In this document: in pieces, positions 49,262-60,132 of the stretch
Layout of the letters: every line of letters begins with the position of its first letter
Numbering within the stretch: position 1 is the first letter of the stretch
Assembly (NCBI RefSeq): GCF_001708965.1
Contig: NZ_LVJW01000003.1
Span: 1,488,001 to 1,552,000, forward strand
Origin: Candidatus Thiodiazotropha endoloripes
GTDB taxonomy: Bacteria; Pseudomonadota; Gammaproteobacteria; Chromatiales; Chromatiaceae
Direction: 5' to 3'
Length of the DNA stretch: 64,000 nt
The notes under the pieces: model-generated
Databases searched by the model: none
Seen by the model: only the letters and a program-made list of their open reading frames with translations
What the model was told of the DNA's origin: nothing
Program-made: the position numbers and the translations under genes

Positions 49262-50626
49262 TCACATGTCTTGGGCTGATTCCAAGTCGTTGCTGAGTTG
49301 TTCTTGTTCCTCCAGCGTTTTCAGATTGCATTTATGCAAAATGACATCTTCCGGAAACAGGCACTTGAATTGGCTGCCTGAACCCAGCTGACTGGCGATC
49401 TGCAGTTCGCCGTCATGGCGTCCGATAATGTGTTTAACAATGGCCAGTCCAAGGCCGGTTCCACCCGACTGACGGGAGCGGGCCTTATCCGCACGATAGA
49501 ATCTTTCGGTCAACCTGGGAATATGTCTTTGTTCGATCCCCGGCCCACTGTCGGCAACTGTCAGGCAGGCCTGATTGTCCAAACTTTGCCAACTGATATT
49601 GATCTCAGTGCCAGGTGGAGTATGGACAATGGCATTGAATACCAGATTTGAAAAAGCACTGGTCAGCTCACTCTCTTCACCCAGCAGGTATAGCTGATCA
49701 TCCACCTGCAGATTTATCGAATAACCACCTTTTTGATCGGCCAGCAGGCGTGCCTGATCAACAATTCTACTGAGCAGCTCGGGTACTGCGATTGGCTTGT
49801 CGGATGATGGTGCCTCACCCATCTCCAGTCGGGACAAGGCAAGCAGGTCATTGATGATACTGTTCATCCGTTCAGCCTGTTGGCTCATCAAGGTGAAAGG
49901 GCGCTGTTGGAACGGCAGCATCTCGTTGTCTCCCAGATTCTCCAGAAATCCGGTGATAACCGTGAGTGGTGTTCTTAACTCATGGGATACATTTGAGACA
50001 AAATCCCGACGTGTCTGATTCAGTGTGTAGACGTCGGTAATGTTCCTGACCACGACCAGACGCTGGGCCTTTTTGCCGCCAAAGCGGGTGACGCGTAGAG
50101 AAACAATAATTGCCTTGTTGACCGGGGATGGAAACTCCAGGGGTTTGGAATAGTCAGGATTTTTCAAATAGTCTGCCAGATCATCATGTTTGATCCGTTC
50201 CAGCAGGGAGAGATTTTCATCCCTTGGCCAACTGATGTGGAGCAGATTGTTGGCTGCAGGATTGGCCCATTCGATATTTCCGGATTTATTGAGCAGGATT
50301 AAGCCATCCGGTATCGAGCTGGTGACTTTTCTGAAACGTGAAGCGAACCGGTTCAGGGTACGTTTACGTTTACGACTTCGCAGTCGATGCCTGGATAGCT
50401 CTTTGTAGATCATACCCCAGATATCAGCAGGGTATGGTGGTGTGATTGGTTTACCGTGATGGATCAAATGGGCAAGTTTGATCAGATAGAAGCCATGTTT
50501 GGTCAGATAGGCGGTAATCGCAAATACAGCGGCAAGAGTCAGTGTGTCAGCCAAATATCCAAACGGTAAAACAACCAGCAATGCGCCAGTTAACTGACTG
50601 ATTTCAATGTTGAGATAATTTCTCAC
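49262..50626 (-). CDS. phoR: phosphate-regulon sensor histidine kinase PhoR
   Basis: A 454-residue sensor kinase. Two N-terminal membrane helices, a PAS domain (about 110-220), a HisKA domain with phospho-His in VSNVSHELRTPLTVITGFLE, then an ATPase domain with N box, DSGPGIEQRH and GTGLGLAIVKHI. The layout and motif wording are those of PhoR. GTG start at 50626 overlaps the phoB stop by four bases. The Pst/PhoU components that normally signal to it are not in this window. Confidence 0.95.
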   Translation of the reverse strand: MRNYLNIEISQLTGALLVVLPFGYLADTLTLAAVFAITAYLTKHGFYLIKLAHLIHHGKPITPPYPADIWGMIYKELSRHRLRSRKRKRTLNRFASRFRKVTSSIPDGLILLNKSGNIEWANPAANNLLHISWPRDENLSLLERIKHDDLADYLKNPDYSKPLEFPSPVNKAIIVSLRVTRFGGKKAQRLVVVRNITDVYTLNQTRRDFVSNVSHELRTPLTVITGFLENLGDNEMLPFQQRPFTLMSQQAERMNSIINDLLALSRLEMGEAPSSDKPIAVPELLSRIVDQARLLADQKGGYSINLQVDDQLYLLGEESELTSAFSNLVFNAIVHTPPGTEINISWQSLDNQACLTVADSGPGIEQRHIPRLTERFYRADKARSRQSGGTGLGLAIVKHIIGRHDGELQIASQLGSGSQFKCLFPEDVILHKCNLKTLEEQEQLSNDLESAQDM

Positions 50627-51330
50627 GATTTTTCTGAGTTATGACTGGCAGGCTGTGGTGTAAATCGATATCCAACCCCGCGAACGGTCTGTATGAAACG
50701 ATGGTGGTTGGAAGGCGTCAGTAATTTTCTCAAACGGCGTATGTGTACATCAACGGTTCTCTCATCCACATAGACATCATTACCCCAGACGTGATCCAGA
50801 ATCTGGGATCGGCTATAAGCACGCTCGGGATGACTCATGAAAAAATAGAGTAGACGATACTCTGCTGGGGAGAGATGCAGGGGCGTCTCATTGATCAGTA
50901 CAAGATGTTTGACCGGATCGAGGATCAAACCGTGATAGGCAACCGCCTGTTGCTCTGAAGAGCCGCCAGAGCGCCGTAATACCGCTTTGATTCGTGCAAT
51001 CATCTCCCTGGTGGAGAAGGGTTTGGTGATGTAATCATCCGCACCACTGTCCAAGCCTACCACCTTGTCCGATTCATCCGTTTTTGCCGTGAGCAGGATG
51101 ATCGGTGTAGAGACTGGTGATACCTGTTTCAGCTCCTTGGTGAGATCCAATCCTGATCTGCCGGGCAGCATCCAATCCATCAGGATCAGATCATAGTTGT
51201 GATCTGCCAACAGTTTTCGCGCATCCTGGGCATTATCGGCTTCGCTTATCACAAATCCTTTCGGTTCCAACGCAAAGCGGATCATCTCACGAATCTCCGG
51301 TTCATCTTCTACGATTAAAATTTTCGGCAT
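50623..51330 (-). CDS. phoB: phosphate-regulon response regulator PhoB
   Basis: A 235-residue OmpR/PhoB-type regulator. The receiver domain has EDEPEIREM, the phospho-Asp in LILMDWMLPGRSGLD near residue 54, and KPFS; the winged-helix domain has the recognition segment VYVDERTVDVHIRRLRKLL and VRGVGYRF. It activates phosphate-starvation genes. Upstream of phoR in one operon. No obvious Pho box was found in the 600 bases upstream. Confidence 0.96.
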   Translation of the reverse strand: MPKILIVEDEPEIREMIRFALEPKGFVISEADNAQDARKLLADHNYDLILMDWMLPGRSGLDLTKELKQVSPVSTPIILLTAKTDESDKVVGLDSGADDYITKPFSTREMIARIKAVLRRSGGSSEQQAVAYHGLILDPVKHLVLINETPLHLSPAEYRLLYFFMSHPERAYSRSQILDHVWGNDVYVDERTVDVHIRRLRKLLTPSNHHRFIQTVRGVGYRFTPQPASHNSEKS

Positions 51331-51935: not shown

Positions 51936-53207
51936 GTGGAAAGTTATCTAATTTTGGTGGCACTGCTCGTGCTGTCGGGCGTCTTCTCCGGTTCTGAGAC
52001 AGCTCTGGTATCCCTATCGATGGCTCGTGCCGAGGCATTGTACAAGGAGGGTAGAAGTGGCGCTCATGCTCTCTACATCCTGAAAAAAGATCCCAGCCGA
52101 ATGCTGATCACGATTCTGATCGGCAATAATGTGGTCAATATCGCTGCATCCGCCATGGCCACAGTGATTGCAACAGACTACTTCGGCGATAGTGGCCCAG
52201 GCATTGCGGTCGGTATACTGACCATCGTGATTCTGATTTTCGGTGAGATTACCCCGAAGAGTCTGGCAACCCGTTTCTCCGAACGTATCTCACTGGCAAT
52301 ATCACCCCTCATCTATGGATTCATGCGCTTGATCTACCCGCTGGTCTGGCTGTTTCTGCAGTTCACCAACTGGGTACAGTCCTCTACCAAGGCGATGGAT
52401 GATCCGCTGATTACGGAATCAGAGGTGATCACACTGATCGAGCATGGAGAGGAAGAGGGTGTCATCGACACCGATGAGCGGGAGATGATTGAGCGCATCT
52501 TCAGCTTCAATGACCTCAAGGCTGAGGATGTGATGACCCCCAGGCGCCAGGTGTTTCGGCTCGATGGTTGTCGCACCCTAAGGGATGTGCTACCGAATAT
52601 ACTGACCGAAGGATATTCCCGAATTCCGGTCTATAGTGAAGACCCGGATGAAATCGTCAGTGTGATCATCCTGCGGGACCTGATCGGTATCATTGCCAAG
52701 GGTGAGTTGGATGTGGAACTCAAAGAGTTGGGTCAGGAGCCCTTGTTCACCTCAGCCATCACACCGATCGATGAGTTGATTCGAATTCTGAAAAATAAAA
52801 GCACTCATCTGGCCGTTGTGGTTGATGAGCATGGTGCGATGGTGGGCGTCATCTCACTTGAGGATATGCTTGAAGAGCTGGTGGGTGAGATCTACGACGA
52901 AAGTGACGAAAAGCCCGATGATCTGTTGGTGCTGGACGATAGTAATATACTGGTGAAGGGGACAGCGGAGTTGCGCGTTGTTGAGGAGTTTTTCTCCATC
53001 GATATTCCTGGCAAGCCAACCGACACAATCAACAGATGGTTGCTTGAGCATACCGAACGGATTCCGGCTAAAGATGAGAAATTTGAACTGGATGGTCTGA
53101 TGGTGCGAGTCGAAGATGCGTCCACCCGACGAATTCACCAGGTGATTCTCAGCCGAACCGACAAAACCGAAGAAGATCAGAGTGAGGACCTGCAGACTGA
53201 GTCCTGA
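51936..53207 (+). CDS. CNNM/CorC-HlyC family transporter
   Basis: A 423-residue protein with an N-terminal DUF21/CNNM membrane domain (three to four helices; FSGSETALVSLSMARAEALY and GNNVVNIAASAMATV), a pair of CBS domains (about 195-320; MTPRRQVFRLDG and DEHGAMVGVISLEDMLEELVGEI) and the C-terminal CorC_HlyC domain. Homologues are linked to magnesium or cobalt efflux; YfjD of E. coli is similar. The start is GTG 51936 with only a weak ribosome binding site. Divergent from phoB. Confidence 0.92.
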   Translation: MESYLILVALLVLSGVFSGSETALVSLSMARAEALYKEGRSGAHALYILKKDPSRMLITILIGNNVVNIAASAMATVIATDYFGDSGPGIAVGILTIVILIFGEITPKSLATRFSERISLAISPLIYGFMRLIYPLVWLFLQFTNWVQSSTKAMDDPLITESEVITLIEHGEEEGVIDTDEREMIERIFSFNDLKAEDVMTPRRQVFRLDGCRTLRDVLPNILTEGYSRIPVYSEDPDEIVSVIILRDLIGIIAKGELDVELKELGQEPLFTSAITPIDELIRILKNKSTHLAVVVDEHGAMVGVISLEDMLEELVGEIYDESDEKPDDLLVLDDSNILVKGTAELRVVEEFFSIDIPGKPTDTINRWLLEHTERIPAKDEKFELDGLMVRVEDASTRRIHQVILSRTDKTEEDQSEDLQTES

Positions 53208-53290: not shown

Positions 53291-55522
53291 TTACCCATTC
53301 CCACCGTTCTGGCTGTGATTTTTCAGACGGTGTTTGAAATGGGTCATCAGTTTTTCCCGCATACGCTTTTCACGATGCTTCTTGGCGGCTTCCAGGCGCC
53401 TTTCCGCAACTCCGATCAGTGTCTCCTGACAGTTGAGTGATTTATCCTCTTCAGCGGGTGTGCGACGGATGTAGGTGCCGTCAGACTGCATGTCCCAGGC
53501 GTTGTGCTTGTCACCCAGTTGTACATCCAGCATCAGCCGCAACTCCTGACGCAGTGCCGGGGCTTCTACCGGAACCAGGACTTCAACCCGTTGCATCAGA
53601 TTGCGCTGCATCAGGTCGGCAGAGCCGATGAAGTACTCCTCATCGCCACCGTTGTGGAAGTAGGTGATTCGTGCGTGTTCCAGAAAACGTCCAACGATAC
53701 TGACCACACTGCCGCTCTCGCTCAAGCCTTTGATGCCGGGGCGGAATCGACAGGTATCGCGAACGATAAGTTCCACTTTGACCCCAGCCTGTGTGGCCTT
53801 GTAGAGGGATTTGACGATGTCAGGGTCTTCCAGCGCATTCATCTTCAACTGAATATGGCCAGTGGAGGACTCCCGGTGGATTTTGATCTCACGCTCTATC
53901 TTATTCAACAGAGACTGTTTCAGGGTGTAGGGTGCCGCCAGAATTTTGCGGTAACTGGGTGGTGGTGAGTATCCGGTAAGGTAGTTGAACTGTTCCGTCA
54001 GATCCTTGCCTATCTCTTCATCGCAACCCAATAAACCCAGGTCGGTATAGAGACGTGCCGTGCCGGCATGATAATTACCTGTGCCGATATGGTAGTAACG
54101 CCGTAATTGTGAGTAATCCTTGCGGATCACCATGATCAGCTTACTGTGGGTTTTCAGGCCGAGCACGCCGTAAGTGACATGAATGCCAGCCTGTTCAAGT
54201 CTTCTCGCCCAACGGATATTTGCGGCTTCATCAAATCTGGCCTTCAGTTCAACCAGTACGGCAACCTGTTTGCCGTTACGCGCTGCCTTGGTCAGTGAAT
54301 CGAGTACATTGCCATCGGCGGAGGTGCGATAGAGGGTCATCTTTATCGCCAGCACCTTCGGGTCTTCAGCCGCTGTACGCAGGAAACGCTCAACCGTGGT
54401 GCTGAACGATTCATAGGGGTGTTGTAACAACAGGCCTTGATGATCGCGCAGGATATGAAAGATGTTACGCCGATCGTGGGCCAGTTGAGGGTGATCGACT
54501 GGGTGGTGAGGTAAGTCATGAAGTTCCGGAAGGTTGAGTTTGGTCAACTCAAACAGATCCCGAAGCGCCATCATGCCTTCGATGGTATAGACATCCTGCT
54601 CTTCATTCAGTCCCAGTTCCGCTGCCAACATGCCGCGGTGAACGGCATTCATGCCGTTTGAAATCTCCAGGCGAACGATGGGGGCAAAGTGACGCTCGCG
54701 TAGTTCACTCTCGATGGTTTCCAACAGGTCATTTGCCGCTTCCTGATCCAGTTCCACATTGGCATTACGGGTAACCCGAAACAGATCACAGGATTCGATC
54801 GCCATACCCGGGAACAACATATCCAGATTGTTGGCAATCAGGTCATCCAGGGTGACATAGGTGTAATCTTCGCCAACCTTGATCAGTCTTGATGAAACAT
54901 CCTGACTGACTGGAACTTTCACCCTCGCCATATGCAGATCGTGGCCTCCTGGAAAGCGAAGTGTCACCAGCAGATTGAGGGTCAAATTGGAAATAAATGG
55001 AAAAGGGTGGCTCGGGTCCATGGCCAGGGGGGTCAGCATGGGAAAAATGTTCTGCTGAAAATGGTCCCGTAACTTCTCTTGTTGATGTTCATCAAGGGAC
55101 TGATATTCACTGATGCGTATCTGTTCCTCTGACAGAGCCTGCAGCAGTTCGTTATAGATCTGCTCCTGGGTCTGTTGCATCTCCCGGGTGACTTTGTGGC
55201 ACTCCTCAAGCTGTTGCATCGGTGTTCTACCATCGACACTCGGTACACTGATACCAGCGGCCACCTGCTGTTTCAGGCCGCCCATGCGTTTCATGAAAAA
55301 CTCATCCAGATTATTGCTGACGATGGCCAGAAACTTGACCCTTTCAAGCAGTGGGCTTTTCTCCCTGGAGGCCTCGGCCAGTACGCGGCGGTTGAATGAA
55401 AGCCAGGTGAGCTCTCTGTTTAAGTAGAGACTGGCATCATCAAGATCGACTGCGCTCGGCTCGTTGCTTACCTGGTTCTCTGTTGTCTCGTACTGATCTG
55501 GGATCTGTTCTGGATTGTTCAT
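53291..55522 (-). CDS. ppk1: polyphosphate kinase 1
   Basis: A 743-residue enzyme that makes polyphosphate from ATP (E. coli 688). N domain: SLYLNRELTWLSFNRRVLAEA. Catalytic His-bearing regions include LKTHSKLIMVIR (autophosphorylated His, near residue 460) and SLYKATQAGVKVELIVRDTCRFRPG, then the FIGSADLMQRNLMQRVEVL segment at the second active-site His region. A polar N-terminal extension and a basic C-terminal tail account for the extra length. It lies 93 bases downstream of the phosphoglycerate-mutase-like gene on the same strand; phoBR is close by, so phosphate control is plausible. Confidence 0.97.
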   Translation of the reverse strand: MNNPEQIPDQYETTENQVSNEPSAVDLDDASLYLNRELTWLSFNRRVLAEASREKSPLLERVKFLAIVSNNLDEFFMKRMGGLKQQVAAGISVPSVDGRTPMQQLEECHKVTREMQQTQEQIYNELLQALSEEQIRISEYQSLDEHQQEKLRDHFQQNIFPMLTPLAMDPSHPFPFISNLTLNLLVTLRFPGGHDLHMARVKVPVSQDVSSRLIKVGEDYTYVTLDDLIANNLDMLFPGMAIESCDLFRVTRNANVELDQEAANDLLETIESELRERHFAPIVRLEISNGMNAVHRGMLAAELGLNEEQDVYTIEGMMALRDLFELTKLNLPELHDLPHHPVDHPQLAHDRRNIFHILRDHQGLLLQHPYESFSTTVERFLRTAAEDPKVLAIKMTLYRTSADGNVLDSLTKAARNGKQVAVLVELKARFDEAANIRWARRLEQAGIHVTYGVLGLKTHSKLIMVIRKDYSQLRRYYHIGTGNYHAGTARLYTDLGLLGCDEEIGKDLTEQFNYLTGYSPPPSYRKILAAPYTLKQSLLNKIEREIKIHRESSTGHIQLKMNALEDPDIVKSLYKATQAGVKVELIVRDTCRFRPGIKGLSESGSVVSIVGRFLEHARITYFHNGGDEEYFIGSADLMQRNLMQRVEVLVPVEAPALRQELRLMLDVQLGDKHNAWDMQSDGTYIRRTPAEEDKSLNCQETLIGVAERRLEAAKKHREKRMREKLMTHFKHRLKNHSQNGGNG

Positions 55523-55615
55523 GGTGGGGGGCTATCCGGATAGAGAGATGGTATAAGTATATGCCTTGAAATCGATATTGTGGAACAGTTCGGTGAGACG
55601 GCTGGAATCCCGGTC

Positions 55616-56890
55616 TCAGAATAGATATGCGCCGTCTTTCGGCCTGAAGTTTTCCAGACGATTCATCTGATCCAGGAAGGTGATCAGGAATCCCAGGCTG
55701 TTGATCCGTCCAAGGCCACCCATTGTGCAAGCCGACTCTGAAAAGCTTGTGCAGCTATCGACTCTACCACAGGGATTGAAAATCAGACTGGGAACCGGGT
55801 CTCCTGTGTGGCGCCCCGTATTACTGTCTGTGCTGTGGTCAGCGGTGATCCCAATCACCAGCTCATCATTGATCAAGGGTGCTATGGCATCGTCAAACTT
55901 CGACAATATCTCACGTTTACTCATGGGATCCATATCGTGTGAGGCAATGTCAGTAGCTTTTATGTGGAGATAGACCAGATCGTTCTCTTTCAATGCACTG
56001 CGAGCTGACTCCACTTTGGCCTGCAGGTCGGTATCCTTGGCGCCAGTGAAACGTGGGTTCTCATACAGCCGGTAGCCAAGCAGTTTACCGAATCCGAGTA
56101 CTGTCCGTTCGCCGGAAATAACACCGACATCGATTTTAAGATGGCGAAGTAAGGATTTTATTTTCGGCAGCTTGCCGGGGCTGCGACAGATAATACCGTT
56201 TGCCGGCACCAGGCCATGCTCCCGACGACGTTGATTGAGCGGGTGTTGATCGAGCTTTTCGTAGACAATCTCGATCAGACGATTGATGCAGCGGGCGGTT
56301 TTTTCAGCAGCGGCATCTCCCGGGGTGTTGGCCTGGCAAGTGAGTAGTCCTTTATTGCGGTAATCATTGCCCGGGTCTGAGTTGCCGATATCATTCGACA
56401 GGCCGATACCTTCCAACTGAAGTACTACCCGATGTTGTGTGGCAGGATGCAGACTCGCCGTTATGCCTTCGCCCAGATCGACTTGACCAATATCTGAGGC
56501 GAGGGCTCCGGTGCCTTGATTGATTCGGCCAGCACGCCGGTCAAGGATTTTGAATCGCTTGCCCTTTCGCTCGATCGTGGCAAAGTTACAGCGGAAGTAG
56601 AGCGCCTGATCGCTGCTGCTTAAACCAACCCCGGAAGCCTCAACAGGACCGCGGGCAAGCTCAACGGCCTGTTGTTGGGATAAGCCGAACAGAGGGCAGA
56701 AACCGGTATGGGTACCGACCGGCATGCCGGGGAAGAGCGGATCGATGAGGCCACATTGTCCGGCGCTGGCGAGACTGTCCATATTCGGTGTCTCAGCGAC
56801 TTCCAAAGGTGTTTTACCGCCAAACGAGGGGATACCCCGATCACCCAGACCATCGAGTATGATCAATAGACCTTTATGGGTCGTTATCAA
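55616..56890 (-). CDS. archaeal-type cofactor-independent phosphoglycerate mutase homologue, Ser-to-Thr variant
   Basis: A 424-residue alkaline-phosphatase-superfamily protein of the aPGAM (COG3635) type. The N-terminal metal Asp is D13 in ILDGLGDRG, and the later ligands are in KATDIASHDMDP, TADHSTDS and GRHTGDPVP. At the nucleophile, where aPGAM has PGSD, this protein has VGTH (Thr60, His61), so the usual Ser is Thr. That change argues for an altered reaction rather than plain 3PG/2PG exchange. UUG at 56890 is the start: the frame closes three codons upstream, and GAGG lies ten bases before it. It sits between a 2-phosphoglycerate kinase gene and ppk1. Confidence 0.8.
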   Translation of the reverse strand: MITTHKGLLIILDGLGDRGIPSFGGKTPLEVAETPNMDSLASAGQCGLIDPLFPGMPVGTHTGFCPLFGLSQQQAVELARGPVEASGVGLSSSDQALYFRCNFATIERKGKRFKILDRRAGRINQGTGALASDIGQVDLGEGITASLHPATQHRVVLQLEGIGLSNDIGNSDPGNDYRNKGLLTCQANTPGDAAAEKTARCINRLIEIVYEKLDQHPLNQRRREHGLVPANGIICRSPGKLPKIKSLLRHLKIDVGVISGERTVLGFGKLLGYRLYENPRFTGAKDTDLQAKVESARSALKENDLVYLHIKATDIASHDMDPMSKREILSKFDDAIAPLINDELVIGITADHSTDSNTGRHTGDPVPSLIFNPCGRVDSCTSFSESACTMGGLGRINSLGFLITFLDQMNRLENFRPKDGAYLF

Positions 56891-56966
56891 GTTGAGTTAA
56901 CCTCAGATGAGTTGAACCGGTCACGGCAATAGGCGCATGCTCAAACTTCAGTGCCAGATTGGCTTG

Positions 56967-58160
56967 TTATTCCATGCCAAATACATCCTCAACTTTAGCA
57001 TGAAAATTCTGCTCTAACACTTCAATTATCAATCGCATGATGTGATCGGTCGCCTGGTCTTTATTGTCGTTGGCGATGATAGAGACACTGTGATTATCCG
57101 CTTCGGATAGCAGGTGACTCTGCAGCATCCAGATCGATTCGAAATTCGACAGATAGTTGCTGTCTTCACTGCGTTCGGGAGCGGTGATGCCCCGATCTTT
57201 CAGACGATGTTTCAATTGGTTCTGTTTCAACACCGCCAGCACGATCGGTACGATCACCGCATCGCTGTGATCCTTGAACAGGTTGTACAGGGTAGGGGTG
57301 ACATGTACCCCTTCAAGGATCAGTGAGACTCTCTCTTTCAGGGCTCGCTGTACTACCGCTTCACAGGGTACAGATACCAGTTCCGACTGGTGAAGATAGC
57401 CATGAATCATCAGCTCTTCGGTACTTCCCTCATGCTCATGTTGCCTCAGGGTTTTATGCCAGGCGTTGAATGAAGAGGTGTGCAGTTCAGGCATCAGTCG
57501 TTGCGGAATCATCATACGCATAACTTCCCGCAACATGTCGGTTGACTGGGTGCGGATGATGTTCAGCCGATGTGCCACTTCAGTGGCAATGGTACTTTTA
57601 CCGCATCCTGTGGTACCACCAATCAGCAATATCAGTGGCCGTTTGGAGTGTTTGTAGTCGGTCCACACCAGATAGCTGTTTGCGGCACGCTTACCATATC
57701 GTTGCTTGAGCTTCTCATGGGTCAATCGGCCAAGTTTATTGCTGCTAATACCCTCCTGGTAGGATTCAAGCAGATCCAGATAAACCGATTGGGTGATCAG
57801 TGAAGCCTTATCGCTGCCCAGTCCGGATGACTCCAGTGATTGCCGGTGTTCTATGGTTGAAAAGGAGCGTGGGACCCCTTTGCGGTCGGTGACCATAATC
57901 TCAGGTGTATTGGGGGTAAGGCTCTCATAGTTTTCTATGACTTCGTGCTGTTCAAGTTGCTCAAGTTGTTTCAGCACCAGTTTACGCAGTTCATCCGTCG
58001 ACAGTTCATCCTTGCCGGCTATCTGCTGGCGTATCTCGGATGAGAGCTCGTAGGCGGTTTCAAATGCCAGTCCGGCATCCGTCAGCGAACGGGTTAGGAT
58101 GCCGCGTAAGAACGGAGCACGTGTCTCATCGTTGCTGTCTATGATGAAAGTTTTTGCCAT
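56967..58160 (-). CDS. 2-phosphoglycerate kinase with ATP-cone domain
   Basis: A 397-residue protein. An N-terminal ATP-cone (about 1-90) precedes a P-loop kinase domain with Walker A GGTTGCGKST at 181-190 and SFNAWHKTLRQHE further on. It matches the 2PGK family (COG2074), known in methanogens for making 2,3-diphosphoglycerate from 2-phosphoglycerate on the way to cyclic diphosphoglycerate. In a gammaproteobacterium the product role is unknown. The ATP-cone suggests control by adenine nucleotides. It is 76 bases upstream of the phosphoglycerate-mutase-like gene on the same strand. Confidence 0.85.
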   Translation of the reverse strand: MAKTFIIDSNDETRAPFLRGILTRSLTDAGLAFETAYELSSEIRQQIAGKDELSTDELRKLVLKQLEQLEQHEVIENYESLTPNTPEIMVTDRKGVPRSFSTIEHRQSLESSGLGSDKASLITQSVYLDLLESYQEGISSNKLGRLTHEKLKQRYGKRAANSYLVWTDYKHSKRPLILLIGGTTGCGKSTIATEVAHRLNIIRTQSTDMLREVMRMMIPQRLMPELHTSSFNAWHKTLRQHEHEGSTEELMIHGYLHQSELVSVPCEAVVQRALKERVSLILEGVHVTPTLYNLFKDHSDAVIVPIVLAVLKQNQLKHRLKDRGITAPERSEDSNYLSNFESIWMLQSHLLSEADNHSVSIIANDNKDQATDHIMRLIIEVLEQNFHAKVEDVFGME

Positions 58161-58323
58161 GGCGTCAGGCTATCAGATCAGTCGCCATGCGTGGAGTGAA
58201 TAGATCACTTTTCACGCTAACTCGATCTTTTTGTTGTTGTTTGATGGGAATATTGAACTCCATCTTCAGAAATCCTTTTTTGGCATTTGCACGCTATCTT
58301 GTCGGTTGCAAACCCCTTGGTAT

Positions 58324-58395: not shown

Positions 58396-60132
58396 CTATT
58401 TTGTCTTTTCCCAGGCATAGATGGCTTCTGCCTTGTTGCCCGGTTTAAAGAAGTGCAGTTGTTTACAAAGGGACTCGACCAACAGTAAGCCTCGGCCACT
58501 GTAGAGCTGATCATTACTGCTATCCTTTTTATGATTGCTGTAGTCAAAACCATTGCCGCTGTCTTCAATCGTGATGATGATATGGCCACCACTATCCTGA
58601 CTGTAGATCCTGAGGTTTATGCGGACACAACCTTGGGAGAGATTGTTTAGTCGCTGTTCACGCTGTTGGAAATAATCAGTAAATCCATTTTCACCCTGCT
58701 TTAGGCTGGAGTCCAGTTTGAGGATGCCATGGTCGAGCGCATTGACATACAGTTCGGTCAGTATGGTAAAGAGGGGGCGTCGATGATCATGCAGTCCTGC
58801 AGTCTCCTGGATTGAATTGATCAGGATCGGTATCGGATCGGCTTGACGCAGTTGCGCACCATAAAGTGTGAACTGGAATTCAATGCAGTCCGGGTGTTCT
58901 TTCAAAATTGTTTCAGGCAATTCATGTTCAACTTTTTTATTGGGTGCCTTAGAAGAACCCAAAGCTGGAAACATCTGTCGAATCAGTGGGATTTCTACAA
59001 CACTGATATCATCATCCTGCGGGGCATCACTACAGAATTCCTGCAGCTCACCACTCAGATTATCCAGAATGTAGTCATGATCGATACTGTGCTTGATTGC
59101 ATCGATATATCTTATCTGCCCGAACAGTTCACCTTTCGGATTCCGTGCCTCGGTAACACCATCCGTTGCCAGTATGATCCGGTCACCCTCATTGATTTTC
59201 AAAAAGTGGAAATCATCCTTTAAGTTGATATCCGGCGCTATACCGAGTGGCAGGGATTGGGAGTTGATCTTCTGTTTGATTCTTCGCCCATCCTTGTCGA
59301 TCAGATAGCAGTCCGGCATACCACAATTGATCAGTTTGATATGGTCGAGCTGGTGATCGATTTTGACAAACTGCACAGCCATGAACATGCCGGTTGGCAG
59401 TAGAGTGTACAATTTGTTATTGATCGCCTGCAGTATCTGGTGTGGACCAAACCCTTTGGCTGTCATCGAGCGGAAGGCCTCTGAAGTCGGCAGGGCGCCC
59501 AGTGCGGATGCCAGCCCATGACCGGTGAAATCCCCAAGCAGGACATACAGATCATGGGATGGGGCAAAAGCGGTCAACATCAGGTCGCCACTGAACAGGC
59601 TGGCAGGTTGCAGCAGACTGTGGATATGTTCCAGGGCAACATTTTCGGCAACCACAGCACCACTGAAGACCTGCTCGGCAATCTCTTGATCTCTTTGCAT
59701 CCGGCTGTAGAGCATACGCGTATCCTGTTGAAGGATGCGGATCCGCTCCATCGCCTTCACTTTTGCGGAAAGTACGGTAAAGCTGTATGGCTTGGAGAGA
59801 AAGTCATCGCCACCTACCTCGACGCAGCGGGCCAGTGCCTTCTCGTCTTGCATTGCGGTGAGAAAGATAATCGGTACAAACGAGTTACCTGCACGCTGTT
59901 TGATCTGTATGGTAGCCTCATAGCCGTCCATTTCCGGCATCATCACATCCATGAAAACGATGTCTGGCTGGTGCTGCTCAAACAGGCTCACAGCCTGGCG
60001 GCCGTTTTCCGCTTCGATGACCTCATAGCCATGCTTCTGCAGGAGTTTTTTCAGGATCAGCCTGTTGGTTATTTCATCCTCGACAATCAAGGCTTTGCCG
60101 TGATTTTCATGGGTGCCGAACTCTTTAGGCAT
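58396..60132 (-). CDS. response regulator with PP2C phosphatase and HATPase (RsbW-like) domains
   Basis: A 578-residue protein in three parts. A receiver (about 12-130; EDEITNR and phospho-Asp62 in FMDVMMPEMDG) is followed by a SpoIIE-type PP2C phosphatase (about 175-385; GDFTGHGLASALG, ATDGVTEARNP, DDISVVEIPL) and a C-terminal HATPase domain (about 430-575) of the anti-sigma kinase type (ELYVNALDHGILKLD, IEDSGNGFDY). A fused phosphatase and switch kinase suggests partner switching through an anti-sigma antagonist (STAS protein) elsewhere. Phosphorylation of the receiver would tune phosphatase output. A clear terminator follows the gene. Confidence 0.9.
   Translation of the reverse strand: MPKEFGTHENHGKALIVEDEITNRLILKKLLQKHGYEVIEAENGRQAVSLFEQHQPDIVFMDVMMPEMDGYEATIQIKQRAGNSFVPIIFLTAMQDEKALARCVEVGGDDFLSKPYSFTVLSAKVKAMERIRILQQDTRMLYSRMQRDQEIAEQVFSGAVVAENVALEHIHSLLQPASLFSGDLMLTAFAPSHDLYVLLGDFTGHGLASALGALPTSEAFRSMTAKGFGPHQILQAINNKLYTLLPTGMFMAVQFVKIDHQLDHIKLINCGMPDCYLIDKDGRRIKQKINSQSLPLGIAPDINLKDDFHFLKINEGDRIILATDGVTEARNPKGELFGQIRYIDAIKHSIDHDYILDNLSGELQEFCSDAPQDDDISVVEIPLIRQMFPALGSSKAPNKKVEHELPETILKEHPDCIEFQFTLYGAQLRQADPIPILINSIQETAGLHDHRRPLFTILTELYVNALDHGILKLDSSLKQGENGFTDYFQQREQRLNNLSQGCVRINLRIYSQDSGGHIIITIEDSGNGFDYSNHKKDSSNDQLYSGRGLLLVESLCKQLHFFKPGNKAEAIYAWEKTK

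Follow-up and report, generated by a model that had tools for sequence, protein, structure and literature searches.

A conserved two-gene core

The window studied here, a 64,000-nucleotide stretch of Candidatus Thiodiazotropha endoloripes (contig NZ_LVJW01000003.1, positions 1,488,001 to 1,552,000), carries on its minus strand a gene for a kinase of the 2-phosphoglycerate kinase (2PGK) type used by methanogens, followed by a gene for a homologue of archaeal phosphoglycerate mutase (aPGAM) in which threonine replaces the nucleophilic serine. Genome comparisons support the view that these two genes, and not three, form a conserved core, and that this pair is tied to phosphate and polyphosphate genes well past the close relatives of the window genome. 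An earlier note on this DNA had joined both genes to the polyphosphate kinase gene ppk1 as one module; the part concerning the kinase and the aPGAM homologue stands, but ppk1 does not share their constancy. The genes concerned are the following:

56967..58160, minus strand: 2PGK-like kinase with an N-terminal ATP-cone and a P-loop (adenylate-kinase-like) domain; first gene of the pair
55616..56890, minus strand: Thr-type aPGAM homologue with a TTG start and Thr60 for Ser (motif GTHTG); second gene of the pair
53291..55522, minus strand: PPK1 (ppk1), 799.7 bits with TIGR03705 against a cut-off of 465.85; lineage-specific neighbour

All three frames are open and adjoin one another as the earlier note described, with gaps of 76 bases between kinase and aPGAM and 93 bases between aPGAM and ppk1, at which separate transcription is possible, as that note also allowed. 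The kinase and the aPGAM homologue are each the single match of their kind in the window genome.

An aPGAM match was found in 39 of the 119 genomes compared from the same order (36 strong, with E < 1e-100, and 3 weak). The kinase gene lies next upstream on the same strand, no more than about 465 bases off, in all 36 genomes with a strong match, and no kinase match was found at E 1e-15 in the three with a weak one (two of genus g221, one of g230). In six of the 119 the kinase is present and aPGAM unmatched. The pair is uncommon in a same-class sample of 229 genomes, where the kinase occurs in 8 and aPGAM in 3 (one weak), and both genes together solely in the window genome (G000) and in G218, a member of another family in which they nearly abut.

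A species-level scan (one genome per species, two peptide patterns from the pair proteins, best 80 of 270 relatives kept) gave a similar picture. Sixty-two loci encode an aPGAM at least 45% identical to that of the window, and the kinase adjoins it in the same order in 62/62, counting L088, where just the last 60 kinase residues fall within the contig. The other 18 relatives comprise two loci with the kinase one gene away (L124 and L126) and 16 (15 Ser-type loci and L132) with no kinase in the flanking DNA. The gap, taken between match ends and not proven start codons, does not exceed 20 bases in 36/62 pair loci, and the genes overlap in 6. The closest relatives in the scan, with aPGAM identities of 92-94%, are mostly records named Ca. 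Thiodiazotropha or lucinid clam symbionts. Most pair loci are labelled Gammaproteobacteria and are largely metagenome-assembled genomes (MAGs); under the labels as deposited, the pair also occurs in MAGs of Gemmatimonadota, Rhodothermales and Planctomycetota (L099, L115, L121). The mirror-tree correlation of the two proteins (r 0.72, 44 pairs, no null test) is weak evidence.

PPK1 behaves differently. In a ppk1 search of 45 genomes, 37 of them carrying the pair, ppk1 is adjacent to the pair in 25/37 (20 from the window's own genus and 5 from g206, the genus of tubeworm symbionts; G262 has only a fragment, at the edge of a contig), located elsewhere in 3/37 and unmatched in 9/37 at E 1e-40. Among the genomes tested, adjacency is limited to these two genera. 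A fixed third member can therefore be rejected, and PPK1 is, on gene order, an optional, lineage-specific neighbour of the pair. The neighbourhood comparison proposed earlier thus finds adjacency past close relatives for the pair, in two families and at 62 scan loci, and not for ppk1. Beside the pair of the Lamellibrachia barhami symbiont (L092:9354-14873), an additional partial ppk1 and an additional Na/Pi cotransporter match occur, perhaps through duplication or as an artefact of assembly.

Phosphate genes around the pair

Clustering at 90% identity (omitting L088, its kinase being cut by the contig end) gave 45 pair clusters, 9 of Thiodiazotropha type (aPGAM identity at least 60%) and 36 others, with L124 and L126 in addition. 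Within flanks of up to 8 kb, genes for Pst, PhoU, PiT-DUF47 or Na/Pi transport occur in 17 of the 36 clusters outside the Thiodiazotropha type, and genes for inorganic phosphate (Pi) transport, PhoU or PPK1/PPK2/CHAD proteins in 22. The same probes gave 0/20 at gpmI loci of pair- or kinase-bearing genomes and 1/20 in stretches at fixed positions. The connection with phosphate and polyphosphate suggested by the earlier note thus extends well beyond close relatives (22/36 clusters against 1/40 controls), with Fisher values and effect size indicative only, because the probe families were chosen after the neighbourhoods had been seen, the clusters share ancestry among themselves and every control was taken from the same order; many of the contigs are short.

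The arrangement of these genes varies. In L086, L101, L103, L107, L108 and L112 the pair is followed on its own strand by a pst-phoU group; pst lies upstream in L113 and L123 and is divergent in L048. PiT-DUF47 genes are found near the pair in, for example, L091, L094, L095, L105 and L109, and Na/Pi cotransporter genes in, for example, L078-L081 and L098. PPK2 and CHAD/CYTH genes near the loci were recognised by clustering of neighbours (skipping L096, L115, L120 and L121; L047 and L058 were absent from the first neighbour survey, the gene having been missed by the ORF caller). Loci with the kinase alone have phosphate or polyphosphate genes in 7/11 cases. CHAD genes near the kinase were seen in L122, L128, L057 and L058, and CYTH genes in L122 and L128; the CHAD/CYTH neighbours are possibly another link to polyphosphate. 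ParA-like ATPase genes occur in L122, L128 and, by eye, L057.

Control of the kinase by PhoB through a Pho box is unsupported. Scanning with the consensus found a Pho box at up to 4 mismatches in 8/44 regions upstream of the kinase, no enrichment over the roughly 15% found in shuffles; before pstS the same scan found 8/12, though in longer regions that include some near-duplicates.

The threonine-type catalytic loop

The aPGAM homologue of the window scores just above the cut-off of TIGR00306 (326 bits against 320) and under that of NF003104 (348.2 against 489). Its AlphaFold2 (AF2) model (pLDDT 95.1) has 2zkt (PH0037) as top Foldseek match (E 2.7e-40). Alignment with Ser-type relatives and with solved aPGAMs places Thr60 at the position of their serine, which bears out the replacement of the nucleophile reported earlier. 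Pair proteins have T60 in 62/62, H61 in 59/62 and H64 in 0/62, whereas all 15 Ser-type relatives have S60, D61 and H64, so that the loop SDTxH of the Ser type corresponds to THTGx in the pair type. The metal ligands D13, D314, H318, D351, H352 and H361 are present in the window protein and kept in 60 or 61 of the 62 pair proteins (the exceptions being gaps and one Gly), and arginines 80, 100, 118, 119, 122, 154 and 236 are retained nearly throughout.

In the aPGAM tree (like all trees here quick and without bootstrap; L110, its aPGAM broken by a stop, is omitted from both tree and structure alignment), the Thr proteins are split from the 10 Ser-type proteins included of 15 (SH-aLRT 98), and a single group unites the pair proteins (100). 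This separation, together with the fixation of Thr60, argues that the threonine is an old, fixed trait of the sequences and not a mutation of this genome. A literature search found no paper on a threonine nucleophile in archaeal phosphoglycerate mutase. Clostridium sulfidigenes has a Thr-type aPGAM with motif GTDVG (L132:8004-9257), downstream of a gene of the PF00939 anion symporter type.

Glycolysis does not need the Thr-type protein, since an ordinary cofactor-independent phosphoglycerate mutase (iPGM) scores above cut-off in 117/119 genomes of the order, the window genome included, with or without the pair. The Thr-type aPGAM as sole glycolytic mutase can thus be rejected. The cofactor-dependent mutase (dPGM, TIGR01258) is above cut-off in 15/119, and in one of the 36 pair carriers (G306).

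The kinase and a possible link to 2,3-diphosphoglycerate

The earlier assignment of the kinase to an ATP-cone-containing 2PGK type agrees with what was found: the ATP-cone matches PF03477 in two stretches (1.6e-12), the P-loop is present, and the best-scoring models are 2-phosphoglycerate kinases, the score however being under the NF003259 cut-off. The kinase has the P-loop, T207, D208, R211, R215, Q258, R323 and Q347 in common with three Thermococcus-group kinases above the 2PGK cut-off, and Q or L in place of I are the sole changes between pair kinases and the 2PGK set among the kinase-domain columns listed. No solved structure of a 2PGK relative was found by sequence at E < 0.1. VIA-align gave the general adenylate-kinase-like fold alone, families missing from its list not being thereby excluded. 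Two records, under the names Asgard group archaeon and Ca. Heimdallarchaeota, each have two 2PGK-like genes adjoining in opposite directions (L173/L188 and L175/L189).

A bridge to 2,3-diphosphoglycerate (2,3-DPG) is offered by L124 (1912-5718) and L126 (5405-9236), from Ca. Abyssobacteria and Ca. Coatesbacteria, where 2PGK, a homologue of cyclic 2,3-diphosphoglycerate (cDPG) synthetase and a Thr-type aPGAM stand in a row. As whole proteins the two kinases score above the NF003259 cut-off of 343 (385.5 and 354 bits), and as single six-frame stretches below it (326.4 and 307.2). The 460-residue proteins in the middle have as a match 8oru, a solved structure of cyclic 2,3-diphosphoglycerate synthetase (E 2.7e-142 for L124, 1.3e-78 for L126), and are 36% identical to each other. 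The aPGAMs of these rows, with the motif GTDVG (STDVG in L126), are placed by the tree among the Thr proteins, though not within the pair group. A CBS-domain gene follows the row in both.

No cDPG synthetase match was found in 48 of the 49 pair or kinase genomes searched, including the window genome; the 49th, G333, has a marginal 117-residue match (E 3.2e-4). The cyclic compound as product in pair genomes is thus unsupported, and 2,3-DPG, if made by the kinase, would presumably be linear. Because of the synthetase-bearing rows and the residues that the kinase has in common with archaeal 2PGK, 2,3-DPG is a plausible metabolite of the pair.

A sister clade of kinases (support 99, about 35% identity to the window kinase; the tree omits the Asgard duplicates and L060) includes L009/L060, L053, L054, L055, L061, L056 and L120:3061-4215. 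Five of nine members have near the kinase a gene of the histidine phosphatase superfamily, a fold that includes phosphoglycerate enzymes. It adjoins the kinase on the same strand in L053, L055 and L061, is divergent in L009/L060 and lies about 2.5 kb off in L054; in L051, outside the clade, such a gene is about 3.3 kb off. PF00300 was confirmed for L051, L055, L060 and L061. That two unrelated families of phosphoryl-handling proteins stand beside related kinases suggests a dedicated step acting on the product or substrate of the kinase. Several loci of the clade have a CHASE-domain histidine kinase nearby.

Proposed function and alternatives

The explanation that we favour, tentatively though as a good possibility, is that the two genes are a bacterial form of the 2,3-diphosphoglycerate branch of archaea, linked to phosphate. 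The ATP-cone region would serve the kinase as an adenylate sensor, and the kinase would convert 2-phosphoglycerate (2PG) and ATP to linear 2,3-DPG (2,3-bisphosphoglycerate, 2,3-BPG). The aPGAM, with its Thr nucleophile and rebuilt loop, would take a phosphoryl group off 2,3-BPG as a phosphatase or phosphotransferase, giving phosphoglycerate and Pi. The pair would thereby both charge and drain a small pool of organic phosphate beside Pi import and polyphosphate, tracking the phosphate supply. In this scheme the substrates, the direction in which the aPGAM works, the part given to the ATP-cone and storage or buffering as the purpose are inferred; so is our preference for an aPGAM that takes phosphate from 2,3-BPG, by removal or transfer, and not one that plainly exchanges 3-phosphoglycerate (3PG) and 2PG.

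Several observations weigh against this explanation. Threonine alone does not exclude mutase chemistry: according to PMC11641776, phosphopentomutases of the same superfamily bind their substrate at active-site Thr85, to which PDB titles among the structure matches of the window aPGAM also point. The window kinase scores 265 bits, below the curated equivalog cut-off of 343 in NF003259, so another phosphorylated substrate is possible, and its plant relative LPA1 is thought, in passages of PMC7020182, to be an inositol phosphate kinase. The partnership is not universal either. Only 2 of the 8 kinase genomes of the class sample have aPGAM; no convincing 2PGK was found in the Clostridium sulfidigenes genome (best E 5e-4) despite its Thr-type aPGAM; and six kinases placed among the pair kinases have no adjacent aPGAM, so that the kinase can exist alone, the scatter of kinase-only genes in the tree implying that the partner was lost several times or that the pairing arose several times. 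As to the phosphate connection, 14/36 clusters have no phosphate gene in the DNA at hand (short contigs among them) and one gpmI control has a PhoR-like match, a class outside the count; the post hoc choice of probes and the lack of Pho-box enrichment upstream of the kinase count on the same side.

The alternative that survives best, though somewhat unlikely, is that the Thr-type aPGAM is a normal mutase exchanging 3PG and 2PG and feeding the kinase, the pair then being a short line from 3PG to 2,3-BPG without dedicated breakdown. The retained metal ligands and arginines, the fold match to PH0037 and the active-site threonine of phosphopentomutases would all fit, as would the rows of L124 and L126, where a supply of 2PG to 2PGK and cDPG synthetase makes sense. 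However, the near-universal iPGM leaves a second mutase unneeded for glycolysis, and the nucleophile loop has been rebuilt.

A different substrate is less probable again and, in our estimate, unlikely: the kinase would act on another phosphorylated polyol, such as an inositol phosphate, with a matching phosphatase as partner and no 2,3-BPG involved. Both partner folds (aPGAM and histidine phosphatase) include phosphoglycerate enzymes, related Thr-type aPGAMs are co-located with cDPG synthetase, and the pair kinases differ from the 2PGK set by the Q/L for I changes alone in the columns listed, all of which argue against it. What keeps it in play is the score of the window kinase below the 2PGK cut-off, the phosphate gene neighbourhood, which fits, and the effect of the 2PGK homologue LPA1 on seed phytate and total phosphorus, as described in passages of PMC4844318 and PMC7020182.

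The favoured explanation can be carried further, into territory that we consider distinctly doubtful. Linear 2,3-BPG, or a close relative, might be an intracellular phosphate reserve or signal that tunes Pi import and polyphosphate, written by the ATP-cone-gated kinase and erased by the Thr-type aPGAM (in the sister clade, by the histidine phosphatase), a counterpart of the phosphate accounting that eukaryotes base on inositol phosphates.

It is very improbable that the three genes are independent neighbours in an incidental phosphate context: the 76- and 93-base gaps, the 12/37 pair genomes with ppk1 elsewhere or unmatched and the unenriched Pho box would allow it, but the adjacency of the pair (62/62 and 36/36) and its phosphate neighbourhoods (22/36 against 1/40) leave this strongly disfavoured for the pair, while it is right for ppk1 as a fixed member. 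Hardly credible, finally, is a role of the pair in making 2,3-BPG as priming cofactor of dPGM, which needs that compound and whose bacterial source of it is poorly known; it is disfavoured by the absence of dPGM above cut-off in 35/36 pair carriers of the order.

Other genes near the pair

Four further genes of the window lie beside the three discussed above:

49262-50626, minus strand: phoR, phosphate two-component system; the name fits by eye, from sequence
50623-51330, minus strand: phoB, phosphate two-component system; the name fits by eye, from sequence
51936..53207, plus strand: CNNM/CorC-like membrane protein with CBS domains (PF01595, PF03471, PF00571), between phoBR and ppk1
58396..60132, minus strand: response regulator with SpoIIE phosphatase and HATPase domains (PF00072, PF07228, PF13581), upstream neighbour

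The phoBR genes do lie a few kb away, as the earlier note had it (49262-51330, minus strand). A shared transcription unit with ppk1 seems unlikely, because the plus-strand CNNM/CorC-like gene intervenes. This gene is a recurrent neighbour, and phoR/phoB occur within 8 kb again in several Thiodiazotropha loci and in L086, L098 and L107. The response regulator gene, matched in most of L063-L081 and in L083, L084, L092 and L117, is the upstream neighbour in Thiodiazotropha and more distant in tubeworm symbionts. A 32-codon open frame on the minus strand (58165-58263) ends 4 bases ahead of the kinase start; it is also present in the close relatives L063, L064 and L067, is represented by two short frames in L066 and was not seen in the other 19 loci checked.

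Comparison with known systems

No description of such a bacterial kinase–aPGAM pair was found in the open-access literature (subscription papers lying mostly outside the scope of the search). Its recurrence in sulfur-oxidising symbionts and in a range of mostly uncultured Gammaproteobacteria, as a methanogen-type kinase with a partner whose loop has been rebuilt and frequently next to Pst, PiT-DUF47, Na/Pi, PPK1 or PPK2 genes, points to an undescribed bacterial mode of phosphate handling in clam symbionts and their relatives, and if the proposed chemistry is true, Pi uptake in bacteria is coupled to a pool of organic phosphate that has so far gone unrecognised. For lucinid symbionts, passages of PMC9938160 describe a potential for polyphosphate storage.

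Five known systems invite comparison. Like the archaeal 2PGK (Methanothermus fervidus type; NF003259, COG2074), the window kinase has an ATP-cone, a P-loop and the catalytic residues; unlike it, it scores 265 bits (below 343), is bacterial, and has a Thr-type aPGAM partner and a phosphate neighbourhood, in a genome without a cDPG synthetase match. The partner resembles the archaeal aPGAM (TIGR00306, COG3635; PH0037, 2zkt) in fold, metal ligands and arginines, and differs in having Thr for Ser and, at +1, His for Asp, in lacking the His at +4, and in its kinase neighbour in 62/62 loci. Both archaeal-type families also co-occur in Thermus and Deinococcus according to a passage of PMC1274311, a likeness of family presence only, and hits of the 2PGK model include Thermus composti and Deinobacterium chartae. 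The LPA1 (low phytic acid) protein of plants, likened here by description and not by sequence, is again a member of the 2PGK family tied to phosphorus storage (PMC4844318, PMC7020182), although as a plant protein and proposed inositol phosphate kinase.

The fifth system is the cDPG pathway of methanogens, in which 2PGK and cDPG synthetase make cDPG (passages of PMC12136491 and PMC10690619), a compound proposed (PMC1224877) to store carbon and phosphate in a methanogen. The kinase is of the same type, but the synthetase is unmatched in 48/49 pair or kinase genomes. Synthesis of 2,3-DPG by a dedicated kinase is described for methanogens, and passages of PMC10690619 call the cyclic form exclusive to them, with which the rows of 2PGK, cDPG synthetase homologue and Thr-type aPGAM in two distant bacteria, L124 and L126, stand in contrast.

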